Below, in pieces: positions 39,045 to 63,137 of a DNA stretch of 64,000 bases. The notes under the pieces are model-generated. The model was not told where the DNA came from, did not search any database, and saw nothing but the letters and a program-made list of their open reading frames with translations. The position numbers were made by a program, and so were the translations under genes. The first letter of the stretch is position 1. Each line of letters starts with the position of its first letter. The stretch comes from Polytrichum commune. Lineage: Eukaryota; Streptophyta; Polytrichopsida; Polytrichales; Polytrichaceae. The stretch covers positions 47,137,554-47,201,553 of the forward strand of contig OX485803.1 in assembly GCA_950295325.1 (NCBI GenBank). The letters run 5' to 3'.

Positions 39045-39127
39045 TGAAGCTGGCATCTGCTTCGACTTCCGGTGCGAGGAAAAGTACTACTGTTTCTGAG
39101 GAAAACTTCCGGCGCGTCGGCCCTTGA
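39044..39127 (+). other. Upstream ORF 2 in the MYB leader (27 codons)
   Basis: ATG at 39,044 opens 27 codons closed by TGA at 39,125-39,127, 83 bases before the main ATG. Its one-base overlap with upstream ORF 1 would suit termination-reinitiation. This is inferred from sequence only. Confidence 0.4.
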
Positions 39128-39210
39128 GCTTGCTCTCTCTCTTCATTCATCATCACAACAAAAAGGTTGGTATTGAGTCTGGAACGAGGGACGAAGGTGC
39201 ACTGAGTATC

Positions 39211-42200
39211 ATGTGCCTCCACTTTGTGGAAGAGGAGGTGAAAAGAATGCGGACGTCGTATGAGCTGCAGAGTGTTCCAAGCCAGCATCAGCAGCATCAT
39301 CATCATCAGCAGCAGCAACAACAACAACAACAACCGCACAACAACCTGGAAAGCATCATCTACAACTCCTTGCAGGCTGCGGTTTCGGAGAAGGAAAAAA
39401 ATCGGTCGGTCACCAGTTTCTTCTCTTCGATGGAGACCGCCACGGATGGCGAGAGAACATCGAACTCGGGGTCTGACACCACTCCCGGTGCCAACGGTGA
39501 TTCCAGCATCCCCTTCCAAGCGCTCAACATGTCTGCGGAGGAGCGGTCCTGGCGGATGCGCTCCGCTGAGAGCTGCACAGGGTTCAACCCCGAGCTCAAA
39601 CTTTCTGGCAGCGAGGACGAGGAGATGGAGCATGACGACATGAAGGAGTCTACCAACGAAGATCTGGAGAATTGCCTTGGCAAAGATGCGGAGAGTGTGC
39701 AGTCAAGGTTGTTCCCCCGTGGTCACTGGAGACCTGCAGAAGACGAGAAGCTGCGAGAGCTTGTCTCGCAGTATGGTCCTCAGAACTGGAACCTCATCGC
39801 TGAGAAGCTCCAAGGCCGATCAGGTACCACCCTATCTCCATCCCCTTGACACAGGATTCATCCCACATGTTGCAGAACTTGACCACAATGGCGTAAACTC
39901 CATCAGCTACTAGATAAGCACATGGGAGAAATGCTCCGTGACATAGAATATAACTACAGTTGCAGTACTTCTTGTAAGTAGCGGCCATGGCTGCCTTCCT
40001 TCATCGATCCTTTCGAGCCCGAGTAACAACGATTGGATGAAAGGGGCACCGACATGAGCATCCTCATTGATGATGCAAATGGCGAAACAGAAAGAGAGTT
40101 TGGGATCATCAAACAACCGACAGACAGAAACCTGTGTTTCCTGATCCCCGACGCAAGCGAGAGGCGAGGGGAAGCTAACCCCCTTGATGGTCGGTGCCCT
40201 ACATTGGATGGTGCCACTGTGCTGCGTGCTATTCGGAAAGAATTGCATTGACCCGACTTGCAAACACCGATCGGCTCTCTCCTTCTCCGATATTTGAAAC
40301 CAGGGAACTAGCTAAAGTTTCCAAGAATTGTTAAATGAATGGGGGAAGATATATGTAATTCCTGTCAATTTTCATGGCTCTAAGACGTGGAATCGCATCA
40401 AAAAGTCTGGGATCGGAAGGTTAAGTGTGTCCTTTCTGTTGATTGTTGCAGGCAAGAGCTGCAGGTTACGGTGGTTCAACCAACTCGACCCCCGCATCAA
40501 TCGGCGGCCGTTCACAGAAGAGGAGGAGGAGAAGCTGCTTGCAGCACACCGATTCCACGGCAACAAGTGGGCGATGATCGCCAGGCTCTTCCCAGGGCGC
40601 ACAGACAACGCAGTCAAAAACCACTGGCATGTGGTGATGGCACGCAAGTTCAGAGAGCGCTCTCGAGCCTACGGGCGCCGCAAGGCACAGGTGACAAGGC
40701 GAGGCAAGCGCACCGCCACTCTTGGCAACCATCATCACCACAACACTACCGACTCGCTCACGGCCTGGATCGAGAAGTATTCACTCGGTGGCGAATCCTT
40801 GGACGCATGTAGCCCTTCGGTGCAGCAGGGCAGCGGTGGCTCCCCAACCTCAGCCTTCCAGAGCACCTTCTCTCGCCAACAAAGCTCCGTGGGTAACGGT
40901 AACGGCAACGGCAACCAGCAGCAGATGCACCAAGTTGGAGAGATGAGCAGCCTTGGTGAGGTGTCCAGCCTTCCACCTGTCTCCAAGATGCCCCGCCTCT
41001 CGTTCCTCGGGGCTGACTCCAAAGATGTGCAGGAAGCAAGTGTCGTGCGATTCAACAACACCGGCTTCGGTGCTGGTGCCGCTACTCCTGCCACACCAAC
41101 TTTCATGTCCAAGCCTGTCGGTGCCACCCTTGTCTCAGGTATCACGCTCATGTAACCTGTACAAATGAAGATTCTTCTGTTGTGTGCGGAAGTTCAGCGC
41201 CTGGTCATAGAAGGTTGTGCAGCATAGGTTGGAAATGAGGAAACTGGATGTGTGGAAGTCTGTGATCGGCCATGTCCGGTTATGTCTGAGCTATCTATTG
41301 TGTGGTAGTGCTGTTTGATTGGCTGGCTGCCTTCCTTTGGTTGTTGGTTCCTTGCTAGAGTGACTAACCTGAGTATCATGCAGATTACGATGATAAGGAA
41401 CTCCATTCTGTTTGATTTGGATGTTCACCCATGATTACTGCATCTGTAATGGTGTTTGTCGCCACTGTTCCTGCTTAGAATTGTTCGTGAGGGAATTCAT
41501 GCATGTTGTGTTGTGTTGTTATGATGTTGTGAAGTGGAGAATAAAGCTGAGTGAGTGAGTGAGAGAGTGGCGCATTTGGGTTCATTTGATCTTATTTTTT
41601 ATCCGCGCAGACAGAGAGACTCACAGTGCCATGCATTGGAAATGGCTACATTCTATATGCCAAAGTAGATGACTGGCCATTTGCGGCCATCTCCATGCAC
41701 TTGTCTAATTTCGGCAATATCCTCTCATTGGCTTCCTTCTTGGAGGCATGTCCTTCCTGATGGCCCTTGATTTCTGATGATGTCCGTCCTGCCAGAAACA
41801 GTTGTTGCTCTAGAAACTGTTCATCCTTGTTAGGGCTCAATTGAGGTCTAATACATCATCGTATGTTGTGGACTCATCGAGTGTGCCGCAGCTGTCGAGG
41901 GGTCTGTTGTTGCAATCTCTGCACAAAGTTCTTGCGTACATCATCGCCATGGGAAGAAGGCCAAGCTGATGGTTGTGTTCTGTTCTGTCACAGGTTCCAG
42001 ACCGATGTTCTTGCCGGGTGTGAACGCTGGACAATTCGGGGATAAGAGCAGCCAAGTCCTGGACAGCCAAATGAACGCAGGATTACTCACAAGAGCTGCA
42101 GAGGCTCGAGCCGAGAGGCACAATAGCTTACCAGCATCTTCCGGACCTCTAGCCCCACACTGGTTCCCTGCCCTGCCCAATATCCCCGCATTTGCCAATG

Positions 42201-42688
42201 GTGCTGCTCAAAGCTGCATAACAAATGCTGCAAGTCGAGGCACCGAAATGGAAGGGAGGAGCACTCAACCCGCTGCCATGACTTGCCGATCCGAGCTTCA
42301 GAGGCAGCACCAATTGATGTATGACCGCCAGAGCTCCCATGCAGAGTGGCAACGTGCAGATTCGCGAAGCAATCATGGATCCAACCCAGCTCCAAGCCAA
42401 AACTTAAATTTCTTCCCGCGCCCAGAAATGTCGATATCCATGTCCATGTCCAGCACTGCAAATGGCTCAGGGCAAAGAGACCTGGGGTTTCTGACACCCT
42501 TAGCCCTCGCCGGTCCAGTGCAGCACTTGCACGAAAGGCTATGGAGGGAGAGTTCGCTCAAGATGAGTCCCAGCTCGTGGGGCACCGCAGATGGATCCCA
42601 GGACTCTCATGTCACCGAATCTGCACCATCGCAACCCGAGTCGTCACCGGTGCCTTTCATCGACTTCCTGGGTGTTGGAGTGGCTTGA
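39211..42688 (+). CDS. R2R3-MYB transcription factor, subgroup-21 type (MYB52/54/105/117-like), three exons
   Basis: The exons are 39,211-39,823, 40,452-41,138 and 41,994-42,688. Both introns are GT-AG in phase 1 and each restores a glycine codon, giving 664 aa. The first in-frame ATG (39,211) is chosen; a second follows at 39,247. Residues 25-41 are a His/Gln tract. The DNA-binding R2R3 domain spans about 170-270: R2 starts [12 protein letters not shown] with Trp 173, 193 and 212; R3 has Phe225, Trp244 and Trp263. The FNQLDP linker and the [10 protein letters not shown] end match Arabidopsis MYB52, MYB105 and MYB117. Intron 1 sits at the canonical place in R2 (GRS/GKSC); R3 is uninterrupted. 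The extreme C-terminus [10 protein letters not shown] is the motif I associate with subgroup 21, which ties exon 3 to the gene. Such nuclear factors control organ boundaries or secondary walls in angiosperms; the role here is unknown. All reading frames are intact. Confidence 0.93.
39824..40451 (+). other. MYB intron 1 (628 bp)
   Basis: It begins GTACCA and ends TTGCAG, splitting the Gly205 codon in phase 1. This is the conserved R2 intron position of plant R2R3-MYB genes. Reading through the donor gives stop after eight codons (GTTLSPSP), so retention would truncate R2. No separate gene is seen inside. Confidence 0.85.
41139..41993 (+). other. MYB intron 2 (855 bp) with an internal AATAAA
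   Basis: It begins GTATCA and ends TCACAG, phase 1. If not spliced, translation ends at TAA 41,153-41,155 after GITLM, giving 438 aa. AATAAA at 41,540-41,545, preceded by a TTGTGTTGTTATG-rich stretch, is a candidate poly(A) signal for that short form. The short form would keep the whole DNA-binding domain but lose the C-terminal FIDFLGVG motif. Confidence 0.75.
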
Positions 42689-48624: not shown

Positions 48625-49738
48625 CAAGCTTTCAATTTGAGCATTCAAGTGTAAAGTAGACTTAGGGAACAATATGAGAAGGCTCCTTTCTTCAAGCTCT
48701 GAACCCTCATTAGTGTAAAGGGGGGGCTTGATAACCCTACAAGTTTGGGGACATAGGTACCTAGCCAGTTGTAACTTACAGGTAGGTATACATGTAAAAT
48801 ACATCCTACTAAGCTCGAAACAAAATAAATGAGGTTAGTTGTTTATGTATGGAAGAAACATCATAGTATAGATGAACAAGCAGCCATTAACATTCTTAGT
48901 AAATTGGTGTTGAGTAATGGGTGACATTCTCGGGATGAATGGTGATGAGTTCGGTCGTCATCCACCTGTGGATGTGTGTACTCCACATTCAATTTCTCAA
49001 TTAGTGGAGTTATTTATCAGTGTATGTGTGGGATGCCAATGATCTGATGAGGAGTAGGCAGGGCAGGAAAAATGGATTCTCCAACCGAATGGCCATAAAG
49101 GGAATTGATGCACCACGCACAAAACTGTGCAAGCATAGCCAATTTATGGGCGTTGTGTGTGTGTGTCTATTGAATCTCCACAACAATAGTTTCTGAAGCA
49201 AGAAGATGAACCACGGCTCTGCATGCACAATCATCACAAGCCCCAACCATCACGAGAGCAGAGCGCTCGAATGAATATGCATCACCCCAAATTACGTGGA
49301 GTTGGTTGGAGCACGAATGTTTTCGGCATTGTTTGGTCCGATCGAAGTGAAATCATGCGGCGCCGCCGCCGCAACAACAACAACAACAACCAGGTTGTGT
49401 GTGTGAGATCCACAACGAGTCCACCCATCATGGATTGTTTACCTGTTATGAATCCTTATTTTTGTCATTGGGTTACACTTTTATTCCATAAAATTAGCAC
49501 TTGTAATGTATTTTAAGATCGAAACACAAAGTACGTCGGCTCAGTTGGAACTAAGTCAAGGGGCATATTTCAAAGGTGGTTCTACATGCAATATAGTATG
49601 TAAAAAAAGGGCAATGAAGTTATCCACCAACTAATCGTGTTGTCGTGTAAATAGCAATTATGTGTCACTGCAGTTTGAGTACCAACCACCATTAACAAAC
49701 AACACTAAAGCATAGCAAAGTCACACATAAACAACACA
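47793..49738. other. AT-rich DNA including the probable LTR of the methyltransferase retrotransposon
   Basis: A (TA)n run lies at 48,594-48,621. Sequence below 49,746 should be the 3' LTR of the minus-strand Ty3/gypsy element, but without the second LTR its inner end cannot be placed. A GCGGCGGCGGCG and (GTT)n cluster sits near 49,358-49,391. No gene is recognised. Confidence 0.4.
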
Positions 49739-49740
49739 CC

Positions 49741-49759
49741 TCGACATGCCCCCCCCCCT
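49741..49759 (-). other. Polypurine tract and start of the 3' LTR
   Basis: Minus-strand reading gives AAGGGGGGGGGGCATGTCGA. The G-run is a polypurine tract and TGTCGAGG at its end is the likely LTR start, about 280 bases after the pol stop. The other LTR is not in the window, so the LTR length cannot be measured. Confidence 0.5.
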
Positions 49760-50038
49760 TAGCTGACTATAGAGTCCCGCCAAGCAGCTAAAAACCAATG
49801 CCAATCCAAAGGGCATGGATAATAAAGAGATTGCTCCGCAACTAACTAGTGTGATAAACGCCATTCCAAGGAATTGTAGGCTAGGTGCAATGTGAGCCCC
49901 ATCCTTAATCGCCTCTGATGGTTGGCCATCAGATTCCAAAGAATTAAATCCACCGCCTCATGTTGATTGCGTCTGTAAGCCATAACTCCTCATTTTCCAT
50001 TTGGACACGCACAAAATGATGAAAACCACACATGATCA

Positions 50039-50455
50039 TTAAGTACGATTGGTGGAAGCACCAAGTACCGAAGATCCTCGACAGCGAGGACAACTCCATT
50101 GTCCAGATGATAGAGAAGTCAAGGGTGGCCTCGAGCATGTCATATGCCAACCACGTTGACACTGATCACACAAAAGCATAGTAGCCACTCTTTTCTTCTC
50201 TCCACACACAAAATATGGAAGACCCTCTGACACGACGGCCAGTTCAAGATGAACTGTACCCTCAATGGGTAGATGACATGGGGCACAGTTTTTGGAATGT
50301 TCGCGACACCCCATGCCATCATTGCCTTCCAACAACAACAAACCACTCGGCAACACCTCCTTCACCCGAAGGATAGTGCGCCCCGCCCTGACATCCAATG
50401 TCGTAGGCGCCTCACGTTGGAGATAAACATAATCTCCTTGCCGGAATCTCCGCAA
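50039..50455 (-). pseudogene. Integrase C-terminal domain with PHD-type zinc finger
   Basis: The frame opens with an integrase C-terminal barrel-like part (FRQGDYVYLQ, then RTILRVKEVLPSG), about residues 4-45. Residues 81-125 (50,081-50,215) form a PHD finger pattern: YxxC, CDQC at 96-99, WHMTC with His104 and Cys107, and CPRC at 122-125. The first zinc ligand is Tyr81 where Cys is expected, so the finger is probably broken in this copy. PHD fingers commonly read histone H3 tails. At the end of an integrase such a module could guide insertion, as chromodomains do in chromoviruses; that is inference. The protein ends 13 codons after the finger at a natural-looking stop. Confidence 0.8.
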
Positions 50456-51535
50456 CTGAGGTCGGTAAGCACCACTGCGAATGCGCGCATAACGTCATGT
50501 GTCATAGTGCTAAGCAATGGACATATTCTCCATGGCCATAGGCATGGCCTTCTAGAAGAATTGAGCCCGCTCGTGCAAATACTCTGCCCAAATGTTTGGG
50601 TCATCCAAGTCCACAACATGAGCTAGCTTTCCTCGAATAAAAATCGGAAGTATAGACTCACATCCATACAACAATTGATACGGGCTGTAAGATGCCAAAA
50701 AGGTTTGCCTACTAAATCAATAGCCCATAGCAATCCAAGACAACATAAGGTCCCAATTCCAGTGGCTCCCCCGAAGTAATCCATACTTCCTCAAGCCACA
50801 CTTGGTTGTTTGAACAATCTATTCAGCCAAACCATCCGCCTCCGGATGATCCCGAGAGGTGGTGCGGTGATCTATGAGCGCCTTAGTGCACAACTCCTCA
50901 AAAACACCGAGGAACTTCCTCCTTTGGTCTGTCAATACCTCAGCCGGTGCTTCAAAACATACCAACACACGATCCAAAAAGGTAGCCGCCGCCAACTCTG
51001 CAAAATTTTGGGATAAAGCAACAAGCTCAATCCACTTGCTAAAATGCTCCACCATCACCAACACGTACTTTGCTCCACGTGGCGTGACGACCAACGGTCC
51101 CGCAAAGTCCAACGACCAACGGTAGCCTAATCTCATGATAGGTAAGGGTTGTAACTGAGGTGGCAAGGTGTTAAAGCTAGACCTGACCCGGTCACAAACT
51201 TCATACCTCCCGACATAAGCAGTCACTTGCTGATACATGCAAGTCCACCAATATTGGCCACGCAATATTGAATGTGTCTTGCGTATGCTAAAATGGCCAA
51301 GTTCCTTGTGCACTTGTCGCACCAAGGAAGCCCTTTGATCCGGCCTAGGGACAATATGCCTTGTCCCATCCGACCACAATCGAAATAACAAATTGTTCTC
51401 CCAACGGAACCTTGTTATTCGATGTCCAATCTTATCCCTTTCCATTGCCGAGGTAGACAAATGAAAGGTCCTCTGCTGAAACTTATGCAATACGAGAAGA
51501 TCCTCCCATATATCCGCAATAGCTTAAGGCCGATC
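50456..51535 (-). pseudogene. Ty3/gypsy integrase (zinc-binding and catalytic core)
   Basis: The longest open part (50,819-51,490) carries the H2C2 zinc-binding segment (HKELGHFSIRKTH, then YEVCDR with one ligand changed). The catalytic core follows with the three acidic residues in order: LDFAGPL, VLTDQRRKFLG and HPEADGLAE. After 50,819 the same frame continues through further stops (SYSPYQLLYGCES is readable) to the C-terminal domain. The enzyme inserts the element's cDNA into the genome. The D, D and E are present, but several in-frame stops inactivate this copy. Confidence 0.85.
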
Positions 51536-51650: not shown

Positions 51651-52084
51651 TCACATGGCCCCGGTTAAGTCCTCATCCAAAGGACTTGGATTGCGTGAGA
51701 GTTCATCTACATCCATATTGGTCATCCTAGCACGGTACACCACCTCAAAGTTGTACTCCTGGAGCAATAAAACCCACCTGGCGAGCTTGTCAGTAAGTTT
51801 ATCCGACTTCATAAGCCACCATAAAGGCTGATGATCAGTCACCAAAGTAAAGCGTTGACCATAGAGATATGGCCGGAAATGGGCAATAGCCCATACCGCT
51901 GCCAACGCCTCCTCCTCATAGGATGAATAATTGGCCTTCGTACTGTTGTTGCTTCGTGAAGCATAAGCAACAACATAGTCCCGGCCAAAATCATCATTCT
52001 GAGTGAAAAATGCTCCTAAACCCAATGAACTCCAATATGTATGCAACTGGAAAGATTTGGAAACATCAGGACGTCAAAGCATTG
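51651..52084 (-). pseudogene. Ty3/gypsy RNase H domain
   Basis: The segment reads VAYASRSNNSTKANYSSYEE, then VTDHQPLWWL and DKLARWVLLLQEY, a typical RNase H region of the Ty3/gypsy group. It ends near VDELSRNPS, the usual RNase H boundary. It would degrade the RNA strand during reverse transcription. It is in frame with the reverse transcriptase, separated by single stop codons. Confidence 0.85.
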
Positions 52085-53063
52085 GAGCTGTACCCAGTTT
52101 CTGCTTCAATGTCTCAAATGCCTGTTGTTGCTCACGACCCCAAGTCCAAGGTTGGTCCTTGTTCGTGAGAATGATGAGCGGCTTGGCAATCAAGTTAAAG
52201 TTCTTGACGAATCGCCAGTAGTAATTCGCCAAGTCCAAGAAAGCACAAAGTCTCGGCACATCGACCGGTGTCGGAATCTTCTACAAGGCGTCCACCTTAG
52301 CTTGATGTACCCTAAGACCTCCTGGAACAATCATATGCCCTAGATATGCTAGCCGGTTATGGAAAAACTTGCACCTGTCGTGGTGTAAGCGCAATTCTCA
52401 CCACTGCAACCATTCAAAAATGGCTTGCAGATGCCTCACATGCTCCTGTGGTGTCATGCTGAAAATGATCACATCGTCTATGTAACACCGAGCAAAGGGC
52501 AAGCCAAAGAGGACCTGGTCCATCACCCTCTGAAACTCAACAGGTGCATTCTTCAAGCCAAATGGAAGAAACTTCCAATGGTAAAGTTGATCATTCCCAT
52601 CTTAATCAACTCCCCAAAATGCGGTTTTCACCCAATCTCCCACAAGTAATGGGAGTTGGTGATAGTCGGATCTCAAGTCCAAGGTGCTAAAGACTCGAGA
52701 AAATCCAATGGCATCAAACAATTCTTCCGCAATTGGCATGGGATACCGATCCGACTTGGTCTTCCGGTTAACTGGACGGTAATCCCCGCACATCCGCTTC
52801 TCTGTCCAATTGCCAAAGACATCCATCTTTGATGGCATAACCGTAGCACAAGCATACTCCCCGTTGGAAAATTTGATTAGCCTTGCTGCCGAAAGCTCTC
52901 GGCAACAAGCTTGGAGGCCAATCCTCTCATGAACACTGAGCCTATAAGGTCTCCGAAAAATAAGATGGTCGTCCTCCAGCTGAATGTGGATGGGTTTTCT
53001 TTTATAACCTTCAAGATTCTGAAGGCTAAAAGCAAAACACCTACGGTACGAGCAAATAAATGC
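52085..53063 (-). pseudogene. Ty3/gypsy reverse transcriptase, 3' part of the split pol
   Basis: The frame enters directly from the CACTA target site with the lead-in segment (FAFSLQNLEGY). It then shows RMCGDYRPVNRKTKSDRYPM and FSTLDLRSDYHQLPL with the first catalytic Asp. The catalytic YIDD is intact at 52,473-52,484. The connection region follows (DLANYYWRFVKNF, LGTAPML). At least three in-frame stops interrupt it, near 52,600, 52,405 and 52,280, without frame change. The upstream half of the same polyprotein continues beyond the CACTA insertion at 58,588. Confidence 0.88.
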
Positions 53064-53372
53064 TCGCACTACTACAAAACACGTCTTTTATTCCAACACC
53101 TACTTCACTACATGTCTTTTACTACTATAAACAGTGATTGGAGGAATTATAGAAATCCACATGGGCTCATTTGATGTCCGAATTAACTTTGCGGAGTCAT
53201 AGTAGTGAAGTGGGACAACAATTCAGTTGGGAACGCTCTTGTAAACGTGTTTGGGAACGTCCAGTAGAACGTGCATGACTGTGGTGAAGTGGTCCACATG
53301 GAGAGAATGTTAAGTCCAATTGTCATGTGTTTCAGGGTTTTAGACAGAATACTCACAAAAAAATGACCCGTT

Positions 53373-53592
53373 AGTGTGTATGAGTGTATGAGTGTGAGTG
53401 TGTGTGAGTGTGAAGGAGTATGTGAAAGTATGAATGAGAATGTGTTTGAGAGTGTGAATGACAATGTATGTGTGTGAGTATGAGAGTGTGAGAGTGTGAA
53501 TGAGAATATGTGACAATGTGTGTGTTAGTGTAAGAATGTGAGTAAGAATGTGTATGTGGGTAGGAGAAAAAATATAGTTGTAAGTGTGACAA
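53373..53592. repeat. Irregular GTGAGTGT-type microsatellite inside the CACTA element
   Basis: About 220 bases consist of GTGTGAGTGTGAATGAGAAT-like units of irregular length. The reverse strand shows an open frame of His/Ser/Thr repeats, which is only a by-product of the repeat. Confidence 0.8.
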
Positions 53593-55685
53593 TGGAAGTG
53601 TTGATAGACGCCGTGGGTCGTTCCTTTGTAATTAGCTAAGAAGACTCACGATGAAACATCATGTAAATTTATATTCGCTTGAGAACTACCGTGTCTCATT
53701 AATATGCTCGGTCTCGAATTAATGTTCTCTCTCTTCTCCTTGTGATATGAATATAATTATTGGAGTGAACACATTCTCATTATCATATATTCTCACTCTC
53801 AATGTAAGGCATCATTGATAATAAAAAAAATTAGATTAGAGAAGGTTTCAAGAGGTATAACAATATCGTTGATAACAATATAATTTTCAATAGGTTATAT
53901 AAGTCTTCAAGGAGTTAAGTTCGTAGTTCATAAACGTCAATCACATACTTTATAATATTGCTCCATAACTTATAATAATAAGAAATATATTGTGTTATTG
54001 AATCTTCATTTTTAAGCTCAAGTGTTACTACTTATAGTATTGTAACTTTGATATGTGTAACATATAGTGGTTATAACCTTATATCCAAAATACCATTGAT
54101 TGTTTTGCAATGTCACGTTTTTACTTCAAAGTGTTTCTTGATGACGAGAGTAATTATAACTCTCTTGAGTTTTGCTCAAGAGAGAGAACTCTTCTCTTTG
54201 ATAGTTAATCTTTCACTTGTAATGACATCTAACAACTCACAAGAATCTTAAAGGTAAGAAGTTTCAATAACAATTGTTGTGAGTAGTTAATCAATCAATT
54301 TTTGTTAGTATCAATAAAATCTTTGTTACTATCCTTACAATTTACTTAAAGAATTGAATATGAGTAAGTTCAACTATCATCCATAAGTCACATAATATAT
54401 ATAGGTAGTTTATATTGAGAAGTTTCTCTCAATTAATTGTATCTCTTTCTTAGTAATATTTAAGAAGTTTTACTCTCAATTTAATTGAAATATGCATGCA
54501 AGTCTTATCAACTCAATTTTAATCACTCTATCACTTTATATTTGGATAATTCCCTTTTGAAGAGTTCAATGATAACTTCCACTTTTAAGAGACAATCTTG
54601 TTTTCTTCATTCACGTTGTATGAATTGATGTTTGCTTCATCATAACAATATCTCTCAAAGTTCCATTGATTCTCTGAATATCCTTGAGCGCTTTGTTCTC
54701 ACCCTCACACACTAATCTTTTGAGTTCTTGCTCAAAAGAGTCTACTCTTCTCTCGGTTGCTTAATCACTTAAGTTCCAAGTACCGATTAACAACTTGTAA
54801 GTCCAATTGAGAGAGAGAGATAGATCACACATATTTGTGGAAAAGATAGTATATTGCAAAAGTACTCCGAAAGGAGAGATACAAAAGGAACTCAAGTGTT
54901 TTTTACACTCAAATTTAAGATAGCTTCGTCGTATTGAAAATGAGGTGTAGTCTCCTAAAAGTGTTCCCTTTATATAGTCTTTTCTTCCTAACCTAAAATC
55001 TATATTTAAAATGGTTGTTAACTCCACTTTCCTAGATAACTACATGTCTCCGACATAGGTAGATGATATCTATTATAAACGGTTATAACCGTTTTACCAC
55101 TCTAATATTCGTCTTTCTAAGATTCCACTATATCTTTGTCGTGGCTACATTCCAAATCTTTTTTGAGAATCCATCAAATCTTCATATTGATTGATTTAAA
55201 TTCCAATGATCATACTGGTAGAATGTACCATATTCTTATATACTCCTTAATACTTATATACTCATCGTAATTGCTTAAATTTTTTTTTTTCATAATTGTC
55301 CTTGAACAAAATCTCGTATACTCATACTAATGGAATGTAATCCTAGTCCTATATACTTTCTAATATCCCTATATACTCCTATATATTCCTCATATAAGAC
55401 CTTTCATACTTACATAGTGATCTTCTATCTTTAAGTTCTAAGTTTCCTTCACTAGGCCGCTGGGAACCCATTGCCGTGGGTAAGGGGCCCTATAACCGCA
55501 CGACTTCCTTGTATATCCGTGGAAAGGGGGCCTAAAACCGTGGCCGAGGGCTCTCCGAGTTCCTCTTGTCTTCGGTGCTCATTCTTCGTTTCGGTGGTGA
55601 TTCTTTTCTCCTCTTGGTGATGTATGTTGTCGTTGGCTTCTCCATTGTGTCTCTTTTCTCTCTTATAATGTTGTTACTCAACAAG

Positions 55686-56560
55686 TGTAAATGTGGATAT
55701 GAGAGACAAGCCAAAAGTGAGGAACTTAGAGTGTGGAACCCAATATTTGCAATATTAGGATTTACCATAAATGTGTGAGGAAATAAATGAGAATGTGTGT
55801 ATGACTATGAGAGTGCTAGTGTGGATATAAGAGATAAATCAAAAGCGAGGAACTTGGAGTATGCAACCCCATGTCTTCACCAAATCCAATGACAAAGGTG
55901 TGTGAATGGAAATGTGTGTGTGTGTGTGTGTGAATATATGTGTGAGTGTAATATAAGAATGTTAGTGTGAATATGAGAAATAATCCAAAGGTTAGGGTTT
56001 GGAATGTGTATCCTAATGTTTTCACCAAATGCATTGACAAAGGTATGTGTATATTTGTATGAATGAAAATATGTGTGTGTATGTGTGTGAATATATATGT
56101 GAGTGTAATGATAAGATTGTTAGTATGGATATGAGAAATAATTCAAAGGTTAGAGTTTGGAATGTATAACCTAATGTCTTCACCAAATGCATTGACAAAG
56201 GTATGTGTATATTTGTATGAATGAAAATGTATGTGTGTATGTGAATATATATATGAGTGTAATGATAAGATTGTTAGTGTAGATATGAGAAATAATCCAA
56301 ATATTAGGGTTTGGAATGTATAACCTAATGTCTTCACCAAATGCATTGACAAAGGTATGTGTATATTTGTATGAATGAAAATATGTGTGTGTGTGTGTGT
56401 GAATATATATGTGAATGTAATGATAAGATTGTTAGTGTGGATATGAAAAATTATCCAAATGTTAGGGTTTGGAATGTATAATCTAATGTCTTCACCAAAT
56501 GCATTGACAAAGGTATGTGTATATTTGTATGAATGAAAATGTGTGTGTGTGTGTGAAAGA
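55686..56560. repeat. Tandem array of ~156-bp units inside the CACTA element
   Basis: The anchor AATGACAAAGG or ATTGACAAAGG recurs at 55,878, 56,033, 56,191, 56,345 and 56,503, spacings 155, 158, 154 and 158. Each unit combines a GTGTGTGT stretch with GTTAGGGTTTGGAATGTATA and TCTTCACCAAATGCATTGAC. A more diverged first unit begins near 55,686. Confidence 0.85.
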
Positions 56561-57479
56561 GGGGACCTAAACCAAAGCGTATACGTCTGAGTGAAGACGA
56601 GAAATTAACTTTGGAAGCCGATGCAATGCTGCAGAAAGGTTACGTTCTCACGAAGGGGGGTTGCATTATTCTGAGTGTTTATGCTAAGTTATATTTTTAT
56701 GTAAACATAATTCCACATGGTGAAGTATCACTGTAGCTAGTATGCAATAATGGCCATTGTCGTATTTTTTACTACCCGTAGTCACTGACGCTTACTACAT
56801 ATAGTTATTGGCCTGTAACATAGTTGTCCTATATTACTAGAAGCAGTAATGTGATATCCATAAAGCCGTGGAGTGTTTAGACATTAGAAATGGATTTCAA
56901 GATATATACATTTATGTAAGAAGTGGTGCATACTAAGAACCAGCTGTAGGAAATTCTAAAACTAGGAAATTCTAAAACTTTCGGCTATGTTCGGTAGAAC
57001 TAACATTAATGTCCTTCTCTACATTAGTTTACAATGCATTAATCAATGTAAGGCTAAAATGGTTGAATAAACATTGCAGAGAAATTGAGGTCTAGCCCAT
57101 CAAAAAATGGCTCGAAGAAAATGGAGAAAAAAAGAGACAAAAAATTGATGGATAAGCGTCGGGGTGATAAACCTCCCATTGCCACGAAGGGGAGGTTACA
57201 ATTGGCCAAGCAAAGGGCCATTTCATTCTTTGGGCAGGTGACTGGGTAAGGTTGTGTGCGGATACGTGAGTGTGGAGTGGATTTGTAGACCTATGTTGAT
57301 TTTTAGATATTGACCCCTTTGGAATTTAGTACTTACCATTGTTAGTAGCGATTTGTGAAACATTCATGACATACTATTGTATAAATATGATTTGGTTTTT
57401 TAACATCATTACCATGTTTGTGTGATTGCATTTTGTAGGTAACTGTATTTTGTATGATAAGTGGAAATATATGGTGCAT

Positions 57480-58110
57480 GCCACAAGCATATGACCTTAT
57501 TGAGTCATCCTCATGTTACTAGTTGCAGTAAACGCAATCATTTGTATCATAAACATGACACTTAGTAAAGTGAACATGAAATTAACTACTAATAATAAAC
57601 CCTAAAGATATATGAAGACCATATGACCTCACAACGTAGGGAAAACACCAAAGTTTGTTGTCAACATTACTTTACATAGTAAAGTAGATATCACTTCATC
57701 AAGTAAGAAATATATGTCATTTCCATATTTATTCACTCCTACCAGTCACAGACGCTTACTACGCAAAGTTATTGTCTAGTATGACCAGTGGCAATATAAT
57801 GTGTATGCCAGGAACATATCACTATGTCAAGTGAACCCCATGTTATTCGATACAGTAAACGCAATCATTTGCATTAAAAACATATGACTTGGCAAAGTCA
57901 TATACACTTCACTACTAGTAATACATAACAAAGACATACGACAACCACATGACCTCACAACGTAGGCTAGAAATCACTGGTTGATGTAAACATTACTCCA
58001 CTCAGTGAAGTAAATATCACGACATGTAGTAAAAAAAATATGCATTTGTTGTATTTATTTACTATTAGCAGTCAGAGACACTTACTACGCAACGTTATTG
58101 ACTTTTCGCT
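57480..58110. repeat. Direct repeats with ~327-bp period near the CACTA right end
   Basis: CAGTAAACGCAATCATTT occurs at about 57,526 and 57,853. CTTACTACGCAA with GTTATTG follows at about 57,754 and 58,081. Both pairs are 327 bp apart. The CATGACCTCACAACGTAGG-like segment is also repeated. A more diverged relative lies near 56,740-56,830. Subterminal repeats of this kind are typical of CACTA elements, although these are unusually long. Confidence 0.75.
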
Positions 58111-58587
58111 TTGTTATCCGCGATTACGGGAAACAGTAATGTGTGAAAATTAATTCAACTAATCATCGTCACGATGAAACTTATTTGTTTCAATCACGTT
58201 GTTAACATTGACTAGTAATTTGGAATGTATATATATGCATTTTACATGTTATGACTCTGTGTAGTGAAGTGCAAACACCATACATAACTGGTGCCAGTGT
58301 CATGAGTCCACTAGGCCTAGTTATATGAACGTGTGTCTTATCTTACTTATATTGACGAGGTGTAGTGAAGTAGGACACAACTTTAAAAAGTAAAGCACTG
58401 GAGCACCCCAAACTTCACTGCCATTGGGAACGTGTCCATTGGGAACGTCCTGTCCGACATGACTATGACCACACTTTACTTCTTGTCTGAAGCGACTGGT
58501 CGTTTTCCACGTCAGTAAAGTCTGGGTTTTTTCACTTGTAGAAGTTGAAAAACCCAGTTGTAAAAGACGTGTTCTGTTGTAGTGTCG

Positions 58588-58815
58588 TATTTTCTGTGCC
58601 TCAGCACCAGTGAGATGAGGGCCTAATTCCAATGGCCAATCATCAAATTATGTGGTCTCCCTCTCCACCAAAGGGGAACCACCTAGTGTTGGCACGGGCT
58701 TTAACTGCTACTCATAGGAGGGGGCATTAACCATGCCCCCAATCTCGATACCAACAGTAGAGTCCGGCCTCCCTTCATCACCACCAATATGTGATGATGA
58801 AACCACCACCGGAGA
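58588..58815 (-). pseudogene. Linker between methyltransferase and reverse transcriptase, 5' side of the insertion
   Basis: Minus-strand reading in the pol frame gives ELGPHLTGAEAQKIR, ending exactly at the CACTA target site. Before it lie about 60 residues of low-similarity linker with three stops. This is the segment that in Ty3/gypsy polyproteins leads into the reverse transcriptase. The reading frame here is identical to that at 58,816-59,196. Confidence 0.75.
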
Positions 58816-60298
58816 TTAAAAAAAAAAATTCAAAGCAGTATAAATCCATTGAGCTCGAAGCTCCTCCATCACTTGCTGCTTGAATCGAGAGATTCGTTCG
58901 ACTTCTCCAACCATGGCCTCAATTCCCCCCTCCATGAATGTGGACCGTTGTGCCCCCTTACCAGAGTCCTCTGCCCCCAAAGGCAACAACTGGTTATCAT
59001 GATGCCGTTGCAATGCAAGGCATAAACCAGTAGTCCACACCATGGTGTTAAGATCCATGGTTTGGCCCAACACGAACCGCCGTTGGCCCTCAGAAAGGTC
59101 AGGAGCTGCTGTGGTTCCGGTCCGGAATCCCATAGCATGCTCCCGTTCATCGGCAATGGGTTCGCAATGGGTTTTTGTGTGAGCATCCCACACCATATCA
59201 GGTCCCTAATCGCGGAATGCGAATGACTATGGAAAAGTCATAAAGGTGGGAAAGGCCCTCCGTGGTGCCCCCACTTTGTTGACCAATGCCAACGGGGGAA
59301 ATCATCTCGAACAACCGGCAAAGAGGTCCAGTTTGGATCCAAGATGTCATCCACCTTCTGATCCGAAGGTGGAGGCACTACAAAAAATGTTGTAGCCAGT
59401 GTGAATTGCAGTGCAAGGTTGGTCCAAGGCCACCGAGAGCGGTGAGAATACGAACCAAGTCCCGTGACATCCACAAAAATGGGATCTCCAAAGTGTTGAG
59501 AAACATAATGTTGGCCTTCCAACACCTTGTCCCGAGAGTCTCCCAATAGAGGTACATTCTCAAATATGTACCATGGAGTGAAAAGTTGGTTGGTAAACCA
59601 CCACTGCATAAGCCGGATGAGGTCCCAGAAAAGGCTAGACGTGGGATCCTCTAAACCTCGGCATGCTCCAACACGTGAGTGGCCTTGGCATGGCCATCCC
59701 GCAATCACCAAATCAACGAGGCCCAACCTTCGCAAATCTTCCTCGCTGATAAGTGTAACATCACGAGGAAGACGTCCAAAGCACCCACGGATGGCAGTCA
59801 TATGAAAATATTGTGGGTACAACACCATCAACTAGTGTAAATGGTGATGCGTCACATGGGTGGAGATAGGACAGTTGTCGACATAGATTTACTATCGAAC
59901 GGTGAGGCCAACTTCCAACATGGCTGCCAATCCCGTCCCGATGCCCCCAAACAATTCCACCAAAGTAATCCCCACATCTGGCGGCCGCCACAAAATGGGA
60001 TGTGCCAATGCCGATGGGGCATCCGGTATGACCGGTGTCCTAGGAGTGAGAGAGAGGACAATGTCCTCACACCTCCGGAATAGCTCGGCGGAATCGCGCC
60101 AAGGAGGAAGGGGATCCTTGGGATGGCGCACCAATGCACCCTTAGGTGTCATATCCCGTTGATCATCTGTACTCCCTATGAATGTCAATGACTCTTCCAA
60201 CAATGCGGAACCATAAGGCAATGTGTCCACAATAGCATCACATCCAAAAACCATGGATTATGGTGCTATGGTCGCGGCCGCCGCGAATGCCACGGGAA
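58816..60298 (-). pseudogene. Cytosine-C5 DNA methyltransferase domain (DNMT3-like) inside retrotransposon pol
   Basis: Motifs appear in the canonical order. Motif I is LVELFGGIGTGLA (about 59,928-59,966), the SAM-binding loop. Motif II is IYVDNC. The catalytic GWPCQGHS has its cysteine codon at 59,688-59,690. ENV is in IFENVP (Glu at 59,559-59,561). Motif VIII is YSHRSRWPW (about 59,425-59,450). A C-terminal block GQRRFVLGQTMDLNTMVW (near 59,050-59,100) recalls motif X of DNMT3. The GxGTGL loop and the HRxR-W spacing resemble DNMT3 more than DNMT1 or CMT. About 110 residues precede motif I. Damage: two stops after motif I, one more before motif III, and a frameshift near 59,200-59,240. It would transfer methyl groups from SAM to cytosine in DNA. 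Being in the pol frame argues against a separate host gene. Confidence 0.88.
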
Positions 60299-60475
60299 TA
60301 AGTTCCATGCGGCCGTCCCCAGCCGACCAACTAAAATGTCGTAATTGGTCAAATTTGTCACCTCACACCTGAGAATAAGAGGTGCAGGTGGACCTCCAGG
60401 CTTCACTCGGAAGCTAAGTTGTAATGGCTCCTGAGTATAACCCGTGGCCCGATGTCGTAATGTAAATACGTACAC
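60299..60475 (-). pseudogene. C-terminal remnant of the retrotransposon protease
   Basis: The frame reads LILRCEVTNLTNYDILVGR, which fits the last strand of a Ty3/gypsy aspartic protease. The DTG-type active-site part is missing because the element is cut near 60,475. A deletion with frame change follows directly (near 60,325), after which the frame MELIPVAFAAAATIAP leads into the methyltransferase. The family is inferred from position and this short segment. Confidence 0.5.
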
Positions 60476-61539: not shown

Positions 61540-63137
61540 CCAAAAGCCCAATGTTTTCCCAAGGCGGAACCCTCTCTACCCGACAACGTGAGGCCTTAGG
61601 CATGATATTTTCAGTCCAAAAGTTTTAGCACTATCTCTTGGGAAATAAATTTGTATTTCATGTAGATCATGATGCATTGAAATTCATGATTAATCAACCT
61701 CAACTAAGTGGACGAATAGCAAGGTGGATGTTACTTTTGCAAGAATTTAACTTTATAGTCGAAATCATACCAAGCAAAAATCATGCAAATGTTGACCATC
61801 TCTCAAGATTAAATGAGGAATCAATATTGGAACCCATGGATGATTCATTTCTGGATGCTCACTTGTTTTGTATGGATGTCATTCCTCCGGAGTATGCAGA
61901 GATCATTGAATATTTGCAAAATAATAAATTCCCTTTCGATTTTAATAAAAAATAAAAGCGTCGATTGGTTTTCAAAGCCATGCCTTATACCATTCTTGCT
62001 AATACCTTATATAAACAAGGGGAAAATGGTGTTTTTACATCGTTGTGTCATCAGTTCAGAAATCCCTTTGATTCTAAAAGAATGTCACGATAATATGGCA
62101 GGAGGTCATTTTGCAGGAGATGTCACTGCTAGAAAAATCTTGCAAAGTGGTTATTGGTGGCCTACATTTTTTCTGATCATACGACTTACACTCGACAATG
62201 TGATGTTTGTTAACGAATAGGAAAGCCAACTGACTCCTTAACAATGCTCTTCACACCTATCCTAGCCTTGGCACCATTTGAAAAATGGGGAATTGATTTT
62301 GTTGGACCGATTAATCCCCCAAGTCGTCATGGAAGGTATCAATATATTTTAGTGGCCACAGATTATGTCACCAAATGGGCAGAGGTTGAAGCCACTAGAA
62401 AAGACGATAAACACGTGGTAGCTATATAAGTTTTTGCGAGAAAAGATTTTATCCTGTTACGGTTGTCCAAAGGAGTTGGTAAGTGATCACGGAACCCACT
62501 TTGTGAATGATGTTATTAAAGAACTCACAAAGAAATATTAAAATAAGCATCGACTCATTTCGCCGTATCACCCACGAGCTAACGGCCAAACGGAAAAGAC
62601 TAATAGAATTTTGTGTAAAATGATCACTAAGACTGTCCAAAATTCCATGACTGATTGGGATAAAAAGTTATTAGACGCGCTATGGGCTTATCGTATTGAG
62701 TGACAACTAAATTTACACTCTTCCAATTAGTTTATGGCCAAGAGGCTATCCTACCAGTTGAATTGGAACTACCCTCATTAATGATAGAAATTGATGAGAG
62801 ATTAGGAGAAAATGAATCTCTTCAGGAGTGAATTGCCATGTTAGAAAAAATGGACGACATACGAAACCAAGCCTATTTAAACATGGCAACCATACAAAAA
62901 TGACCTAAAACTTATTACAATAGTAAAATGAAAGCTAAAGTCATTAATGCGGACGATCTCGTCTTACTATACGACAGTTGTTTTCAAAAGTTTCTAGGCA
63001 AGTTTAAATTGCATTGGGTGGGACCTTATAAAGTCAAAACAGCTCATGACAATGGCTCATTTGAATTAGTCAACTTCGAAGGCGTACCTCTTCCTACAAG
63101 AATCAACGGCTATCGTTTAAGGAAATACCATACATAA
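61540..63137 (+). pseudogene. Second Ty3/gypsy remnant: RNase H and integrase without reverse transcriptase
   Basis: RNase H starts at REALGMIFSVQKF, followed by HVDHDALKFMINQPQLSGR and SKNHANVDHLSRLN. The H2C2 region is GGHFAGDVTARKIL. The integrase core shows FEKWGIDFVGPI, LVSDHGTHFVND and PYHPRANGQTEKTN, that is the D, D and E. The C-terminal part FKLHWVGPYKVKTAHDNGSF ends at TAA 63,135-63,137 with no chromodomain or PHD finger. Several stops and frameshifts (near 61,633, 61,955, 62,220, 62,430, 62,540 and 62,700) inactivate it. Protease, reverse transcriptase and gag are absent, so the element carries a large internal deletion. It differs clearly from the minus-strand methyltransferase element. 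Confidence 0.85.

Follow-up and report, generated by a model that had tools for sequence, protein, structure and literature searches.

The 64,000-nucleotide stretch of Polytrichum commune DNA analysed here (the window) contains a retrotransposon copy on the minus strand that extends from a protease at about 60,451 down to 49,641. Along its coding strand the copy comprises the end of the protease, a methyltransferase (MTase), a stop codon, the start of Pol, a foreign insertion, reverse transcriptase (RT), RNase H, integrase, a PHD finger and one terminal-repeat segment (Table 1).

Table 1. Features of the window retrotransposon copy and of the transposon inserted in it.
Feature	Position in window	Strand	Evidence
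Protease C-terminal remnant (retropepsin)	~60,258-60,451	minus	Translation VTNLTNYDILVG; 86.9-91% DNA identity to copy L041
DNMT3-like MTase, motifs I to X, in three frames	59,035-59,972	minus	Motifs; PF00145; relatives at most 79% identical
Stop between ORF1 and Pol, TAG-CAG-TTA	58,702-58,710	minus	Leaky-type context
Pol N-terminal residues FDDWPLELGPHLTGAEAQ	58,585-58,647	minus	Severed by the insertion; compare EFDNWPLDLGPHLTGAEAR in ORF2 of L001
CACTA-type DNA transposon, 5,518 bp	53,067-58,584	not assigned	Ends with CACTAC in inverted orientation; CGA duplicated at the target site (3 bp)
RT, broken	52,074-53,066	minus	90.4% DNA identity to L041 over 51,944-53,069
RNase H	51,654-52,073	minus	PF17917, E 3e-33
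Integrase, zinc-binding domain and DDE core	50,822-51,523	minus	PF17921, E 1.1e-13; PF00665, E 2.6e-10
PHD finger, after integrase	50,081-50,209	minus	PF00628, E 2.7e-10
Purine run immediately 5' of the B repeat, a possible polypurine tract	49,749-49,760	minus	Similar runs before B1 in L001 and L028
Split direct repeat, B segment, forming the 3' terminus of the copy	49,641-49,746	minus	90.6% identity to B of L043

A preliminary description of this DNA had reported the motifs of a C5 methyltransferase, in order on the minus strand, next to a protease remnant, and both were found. Motif I (LVELFGGIGTGL) lies in the minus-strand frame 59,895-60,257, PCQGHS (about 59,690) and ENVP (about 59,550) in the frame 59,238-59,831, and an ERE-MGF...LGQ block in the frame 58,816-59,205. 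The middle piece matches PF00145 above the Pfam cut-off (E 7.2e-11); the first and last pieces, searched singly, gave no MTase family match in Pfam, and an NCBIfam scan returned the general dcm model only, below its cut-off. The retropepsin C terminus differs between the window copy (VTNLTNYDILVG) and intact relatives (VTDATNYDILVGQQALYPLGFG), and the remnant has homologues in P0009, P0013 and P0066. That the MTase stands between protease and RT held for the order on the same strand, but the MTase and RT are kept apart by the CACTA-type insertion, and only about 20 residues of Pol are left beside the MTase. Its assignment to the pol frame did not hold, as the MTase of the window copy occupies three frames with stops and intact copies carry it in the Gag-protease ORF. 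The RT piece at 52,605-53,087 matched nothing in Pfam at E 0.01; it was identified by its DNA identity of about 90% to the RT of the intact copy L041. The purine run that precedes B may, to judge by its sequence, function as a polypurine tract. No Gag was found between window positions 60,000 and 64,000 or in the 10 kb that follow the window, and the element is truncated upstream of the protease remnant. The window copy is dead, 5'-truncated, broken in its frames and split by a transposon.

The inverted CACTAC-type ends of the insertion have ACACGTCTTTTA in common, and CGA flanks it on both sides. When the flanks are rejoined without it, four of four uninterrupted copies align with them over 238 bp (87-88% identity), and the sole gap is two bases present twice in the join. 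No transposase was recognised inside the insertion, which carries tandem repeats with units of about 154-158 bp and about 326 bp (window 55,837-56,557 and 57,452-58,103).

Elsewhere in the window, a plus-strand RNase H/integrase fragment (61,629-63,100) represents a second, different Gypsy-type element, and an R2R3-MYB gene of at least three coding blocks lies on the plus strand at 39,100-42,685. The best named relatives of this gene are three Ceratodon purpureus proteins (350, 340 and 338 bits), followed by Marchantia (338 and 325 bits), Riccia and Sphagnum; a named Ginkgo protein scores 276 bits and other seed plants about 255 bits or below. Four proteins without a species name score higher than the best of the Ceratodon proteins. 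By these scores the gene comes from a bryophyte, most probably a moss. Scans of the 64-kb window for tRNAs and Rfam families gave no match.

The genome searched amounts to 407.8 Mb in 64 contigs, seven of which are of 42-78 Mb. A PF00145 search gave 123 scored matches among 353 candidates and the window MTase piece as query gave 150 among 631; when merged, these define at least 206 distinct MTase loci, at least 66 of them on contig C4. The closest other copy to the window piece, among the matches listed, is 75% identical. An RT query produced 144 scored matches among 2,256 candidates, and for at least 102 of the 144 a listed MTase lies upstream in the same orientation, 0.6-6 kb away; among the first 64 rows, which are window-like and match the query at 94% identity or more, the count is at least 60. 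Six further RT matches (C6:13.55, C1:72.41, C1:33.56, C3:7.30, C3:7.32 and C1:7.41 Mb) have an MTase among the listed matches of a human DNMT3A query, and 36 of the 144 are without a partner among the MTase matches listed. An unbroken ORF1 frame of at least 1,347 aa is present at no fewer than 23 loci (1,386 aa at eleven loci, 1,356 aa at one and 1,347-1,372 aa at eleven more). The family is large and recently active. Between about 45 and 59 Mb, contig C4 holds 35 of its 66 listed MTase loci, many with stops; this cluster may represent pericentromeric or sex-linked sequence.

Family-wide carriage of the enzyme by a Ty3/gypsy-type element, and the existence of further copies with the same order and intact frames, had been raised as possibilities in the preliminary description and are borne out by these counts. 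Two findings named there as contrary to the idea, namely the absence of the MTase from all other copies and a grouping with a nearby host gene, were not seen: most RT matches are paired with an MTase, and the one host-type MTase gene examined, at C2:4.70 Mb, is a DRM. The element MTase has motifs I, IV, VI, VIII and IX/X in conventional, unrearranged order, whereas in the host DRM the motif VI-X block lies ahead of motif I, and because of this rearrangement the DRM is ruled out as the direct source of the element MTase. With the human DNMT3A domain as genome query, 148 matches were listed, of which one was a recognised host gene and most others coincide with element loci. This calls for caution in annotation, as most of the DNMT3A matches listed coincide with retrotransposon loci.

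The layout of intact elements was read from ten loci of a 'subfamily A', picked for long frames, from one window-like ('W') copy taken end to end, and from parts of others. ORF1 of the ten A copies (1,386 aa, in one 1,356 aa) encodes Gag, zinc knuckles, protease and MTase; where ORF2 is intact, it continues the frame of ORF1 with one stop between them, and its 1,047-aa frame is found in seven of the ten. In copies with intact frames the MTase is the end of the Gag-protease-MTase ORF, upstream of the stop and outside the RT-bearing ORF. The domain order, with RT, RNase H and integrase behind Gag and protease, is that of Ty3/gypsy elements. This layout is common to the ten A copies, the window-like copies and an independent contig, CADCWO010000201.1 (L001; 9,285 bp, with ends that overlap by 127 identical bases), where an ORF1 on the plan of the A copies precedes RT, RNase H, integrase and PHD finger. 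L001 is filed under a cyanobacterial MAG and is probably misbinned eukaryotic DNA. P0007, a close MTase relative filed under Candidatus Obscuribacterales, is probably misbinned in the same way.

The stop between ORF1 and Pol reads UAG CAA UCA in nine A copies and UAG CAA CCA in one, UAG CAA UUA in five W copies, UAG CAA UCA in L001 and UAG CAG UUA in the window copy. Thus UAG-CARYYA, in three spellings and the window's own, is present in 17 of the 17 copies whose frame reaches the stop; the frames of L013, L016, L017, L019 and L042 end elsewhere and L012 has no such frame, which places them outside this count. We take UAG-CARYYA to be the leaky stop context of the TMV (tobamovirus) type. The peptide past the stop is partly conserved, and the constancy of UAG-CARYYA is therefore not independent evidence for readthrough.

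At the start of the element lies a repeat, A, which measures about 440 bp in the majority of A copies, more than that in L026, and 334 bp in W; the other end carries B (about 105 bp), A and B. The full arrangement A1-internal-B1-A2-B2 was found in eight of the ten A copies and in the W copy, and A-internal-B in two of the ten. Seven of the eight A1/A2 pairs show 99.3-99.8% identity and the remaining pair 94.6%, and the dinucleotide GC joins B1 to A2, a joint that recurs in L001. All 11 copies with both ends are flanked by a 4-bp target duplication, the ends being TGTC...GACA. A plain LTR structure was abandoned because the sequence beyond the 3' repeat is shared among copies; in place of two conventional LTRs as direct terminal repeats, the element has split repeats. 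Its DDE integrase (PF00665) and short target duplication are nonetheless those of a Ty3/gypsy element, and take the place of the tyrosine recombinase and absent target duplication that an identity of the DIRS/PAT/Ngaro type would entail. No usual tRNA primer site after A1 was recognised by eye. From the sequence of these repeats, reverse transcription may treat B-A as its LTR, and the integrase may act on the B-GC-A joint of circular DNA; the A..B form is equally well explained by recombination of B1 with B2.

As to the identity of the enzyme, the PDB sequence matches listed are led by DNMT3 (29 of 50, best E 2.9e-8), and so are the fold matches, which makes DNMT3 the nearest among characterised C5 methyltransferases by both sequence and fold. 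The tRNA enzyme DNMT2 appears among the sequence matches at E 2.1; CMT and DNMT1 are absent from the PDB matches listed, an absence that leaves both possible. PCQ is present in 88 of the 89 relatives that cover the region, the 89th having WECQ with the cysteine retained, and the HR block in 68 of 69. By its sequence the element enzyme is DNMT3-like, as had been proposed at the outset, with its best match to DNMT3. It differs from the catalytic domains of animal DNMT3, to which it is 22-26% identical in structural alignments, in having PCQ where those have PCN and in its seat within a retrotransposon polyprotein.

Between subfamilies A and W, identity is 64-65% in the MTase, 70-71% in the protease, 61% in Gag, 31-34% in the linker and 33-37% in the tail. 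The omega of the MTase between A and W is 0.08-0.11, a rough value because dS is saturated at 2.3-3.2; the MTase of L001 is 68-70% identical to that of A or W, with dS beyond measure. Among W pairs with open frames omega is 0.18-0.33, and 0.38 in a pair with the truncated-frame copy L042. Within the young subfamily A, mean pN/pS is higher for the MTase (0.0112/0.0197) than for Gag (0.0114/0.0346) and protease (0.0084/0.0237), and MTase pairs with the broken copies L017 and L019 gave 0.77 and 1.1. The RT, with an omega of 0.05-0.06 and 86-87% identity, is under tighter constraint than the MTase at 64-70% identity. Taken on these sequence comparisons, the MTase domain is retained over long times under purifying selection, as the preliminary description had suggested might be looked for, and less strictly than RT. 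Along ORF1, dS between L040 and L041 shifts from 0.49 in Gag to 0.11 in the protease, 0.20 in the MTase and 0.03 in the tail, and such sharp shifts suggest recombination or template switching between copies.

The window copy has C-to-T changes at 27 of 150 CG, 17 of 137 CHG and 39 of 595 CHH sites. The excess at CG and CHG shows only that copies were methylated by something; it is not specific to the element enzyme because host methylation predicts it equally, and the host has a DRM.

In an MTase tree of 57 rows, built by a quick method with one DNMT3A fragment as outgroup, A and W fall in different supported clades, each with database relatives, and the split between them is therefore probably older than the host species. 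Thirteen long database relatives (P0079-P0091, 1,252-1,451 aa) have the MTase near the C terminus. Its place varies among distant relatives: P0095, P0096 and the partial P0078 have it after RNase H, and before integrase in the two complete ones; P0046 and P0094 have it before RT. P0095 and P0096, with the MTase at this second insertion place, also end in a PHD finger. When seven MTase-bearing elements were compared among themselves, the main groups of the RT and MTase trees agree, with weak support in the MTase tree. The differing places could reflect a single capture and a subsequent move, or two separate captures. Among the MTase homologues listed, the sole eukaryote named is Closterium (P0054), which sits on a long branch, and no K. 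nitens protein is named. IMG/VR gave no relative with the window fragment as query and six weak matches with an alignment (32-58% over short stretches). In GTDB the one element contig found was L001, besides four weak matches to Streptomyces.

The explanation that we consider best, and to which we give about an even chance of being right, is that the window holds a dead copy of a large moss family built of a Gag-protease-MTase ORF, a leaky-type UAG and Pol, whose MTase would methylate the element's own cDNA de novo. It starts from what can be read in the sequence, namely domain content and order, the stop context, retention in the family, purifying selection, the best match to DNMT3 and integrase-type target duplications, and from there we infer readthrough, packaging, catalytic activity, cDNA as substrate and any benefit. 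Ribosomes would mostly halt at the UAG and sometimes read through, in the same frame, into RT, RNase H, integrase and PHD finger; with most of them terminating, the MTase would be made in Gag-like amounts, so that its packaging with RNA and cDNA would be possible. Packaged with Gag, the enzyme would meet the cDNA and methylate it de novo before or during integration, and new copies would consequently arrive already marked. Elements of this kind may chemically mark their own copies.

Other roles for the domain were weighed against the same observations. That the enzyme works chiefly in trans within the nucleus, on host chromatin, older copies or neighbouring DNA, with the element limiting its own damage or competing with other elements, seems unlikely to us; the PHD finger, which belongs to the element and on this account may guide integration or binding, speaks for it, as do the C-to-T changes of the window copy, but host enzymes including DRM are enough for that decay spectrum, and a place in the Gag-protease ORF would concentrate the MTase in particles. 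We find it similarly doubtful that the domain no longer methylates DNA and instead assists Gag by binding nucleic acid or methylating RNA. The faster evolution of the MTase relative to RT is consistent with such a loss, and, in the account of de Mendoza et al., the Klebsormidium domain was inactive in yeast and RNA methylation is raised for a LINE-borne enzyme (PMC5890265); the catalytic motifs are kept, however, with the PCQ cysteine retained in every relative that covers it and the HR block in nearly all, and the best sequence match is DNMT3 and not DNMT2. A single chance insertion, or a host-gene fragment beside an unrelated retrotransposon, might be supposed from the window copy by itself, which is broken and split from its RT, but the family-wide loci with MTase upstream of RT, the full-length ORF1 frames and the matching layout of L001, which comes from a different source, refute a single host-gene insertion and leave this reading with a negligible probability.

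A wider proposal, which joins cDNA methylation by the packaged enzyme with the split repeats, is tentative and on balance improbable: an old green-plant lineage in which the MTase, in Gag-like amounts, would methylate cDNA before insertion and the DDE integrase would act on the circular B-GC-A junction and not on LTR ends, circles with one or two repeats giving the A..B and A..B-A-B forms, each with a 4-bp duplication. If it were true, land plants would long have been host to a parasite that arrives pre-methylated.

The order A1-internal-B1-A2-B2 is also that of PAT/Ngaro/VIPER-type elements as these are described in PMC6681497; according to the same description they encode a tyrosine recombinase, whereas the integrase of the moss element is of the DDE type and its target duplications are of 4 bp. 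Among published elements the one that comes closest is KnitGypsy-Dnmt3, from the charophyte Klebsormidium nitens, described as a Gypsy-type element with a DNMT3-type domain (de Mendoza et al. 2018, PMC5890265), and the preliminary description was right to recall MTase-bearing retrotransposons from Klebsormidium and dinoflagellates (PMC5890265). By the text and the Fig. 4 legend of that report, the Klebsormidium and moss elements have in common an unrearranged DNMT3-type domain, Gypsy-type domains and DIRS-like repeats, and the text gives the Klebsormidium domain, like that of the moss element, as under purifying selection (PMC5890265). The text speaks of a Pol polyprotein ORF in KnitGypsy-Dnmt3 (PMC5890265), and the moss MTase, fused to Gag-protease with a leaky-type stop before RT, may differ from it in this; the moss element differs in its bryophyte host and its hundreds of loci, and it has 4-bp target duplications and a PHD finger, the comparison with KnitGypsy-Dnmt3 being by description only. 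In yeast, KnitGypsy-Dnmt3 gave no methylation, a result its authors call inconclusive, and two copies of the dinoflagellate SymbioDIRS-Dnmt3 are reported to give de novo CG methylation there; for the dinoflagellate elements the authors propose cDNA methylation (PMC5890265). SymbioDIRS-Dnmt3 resembles the moss element in being a retrotransposon with a DNMT3-type domain and differs, as described, in being a DIRS element with a tyrosine recombinase and with its MTase in one ORF with RT (PMC5890265). A literature search, with most subscription papers and all preprints outside its scope, turned up no recognised report of a retrotransposon with a DNMT from mosses or from land plants at large. The many copies of the moss family, of various ages and subfamilies, with full-length ORF1 frames and young repeat pairs, make self-methylation testable in a land plant. 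DNMT3-bearing retrotransposons were previously described from algae, and what the moss family adds is a land-plant host, the position of the enzyme together with Gag ahead of a leaky-type stop, and the large number of loci that carry it.
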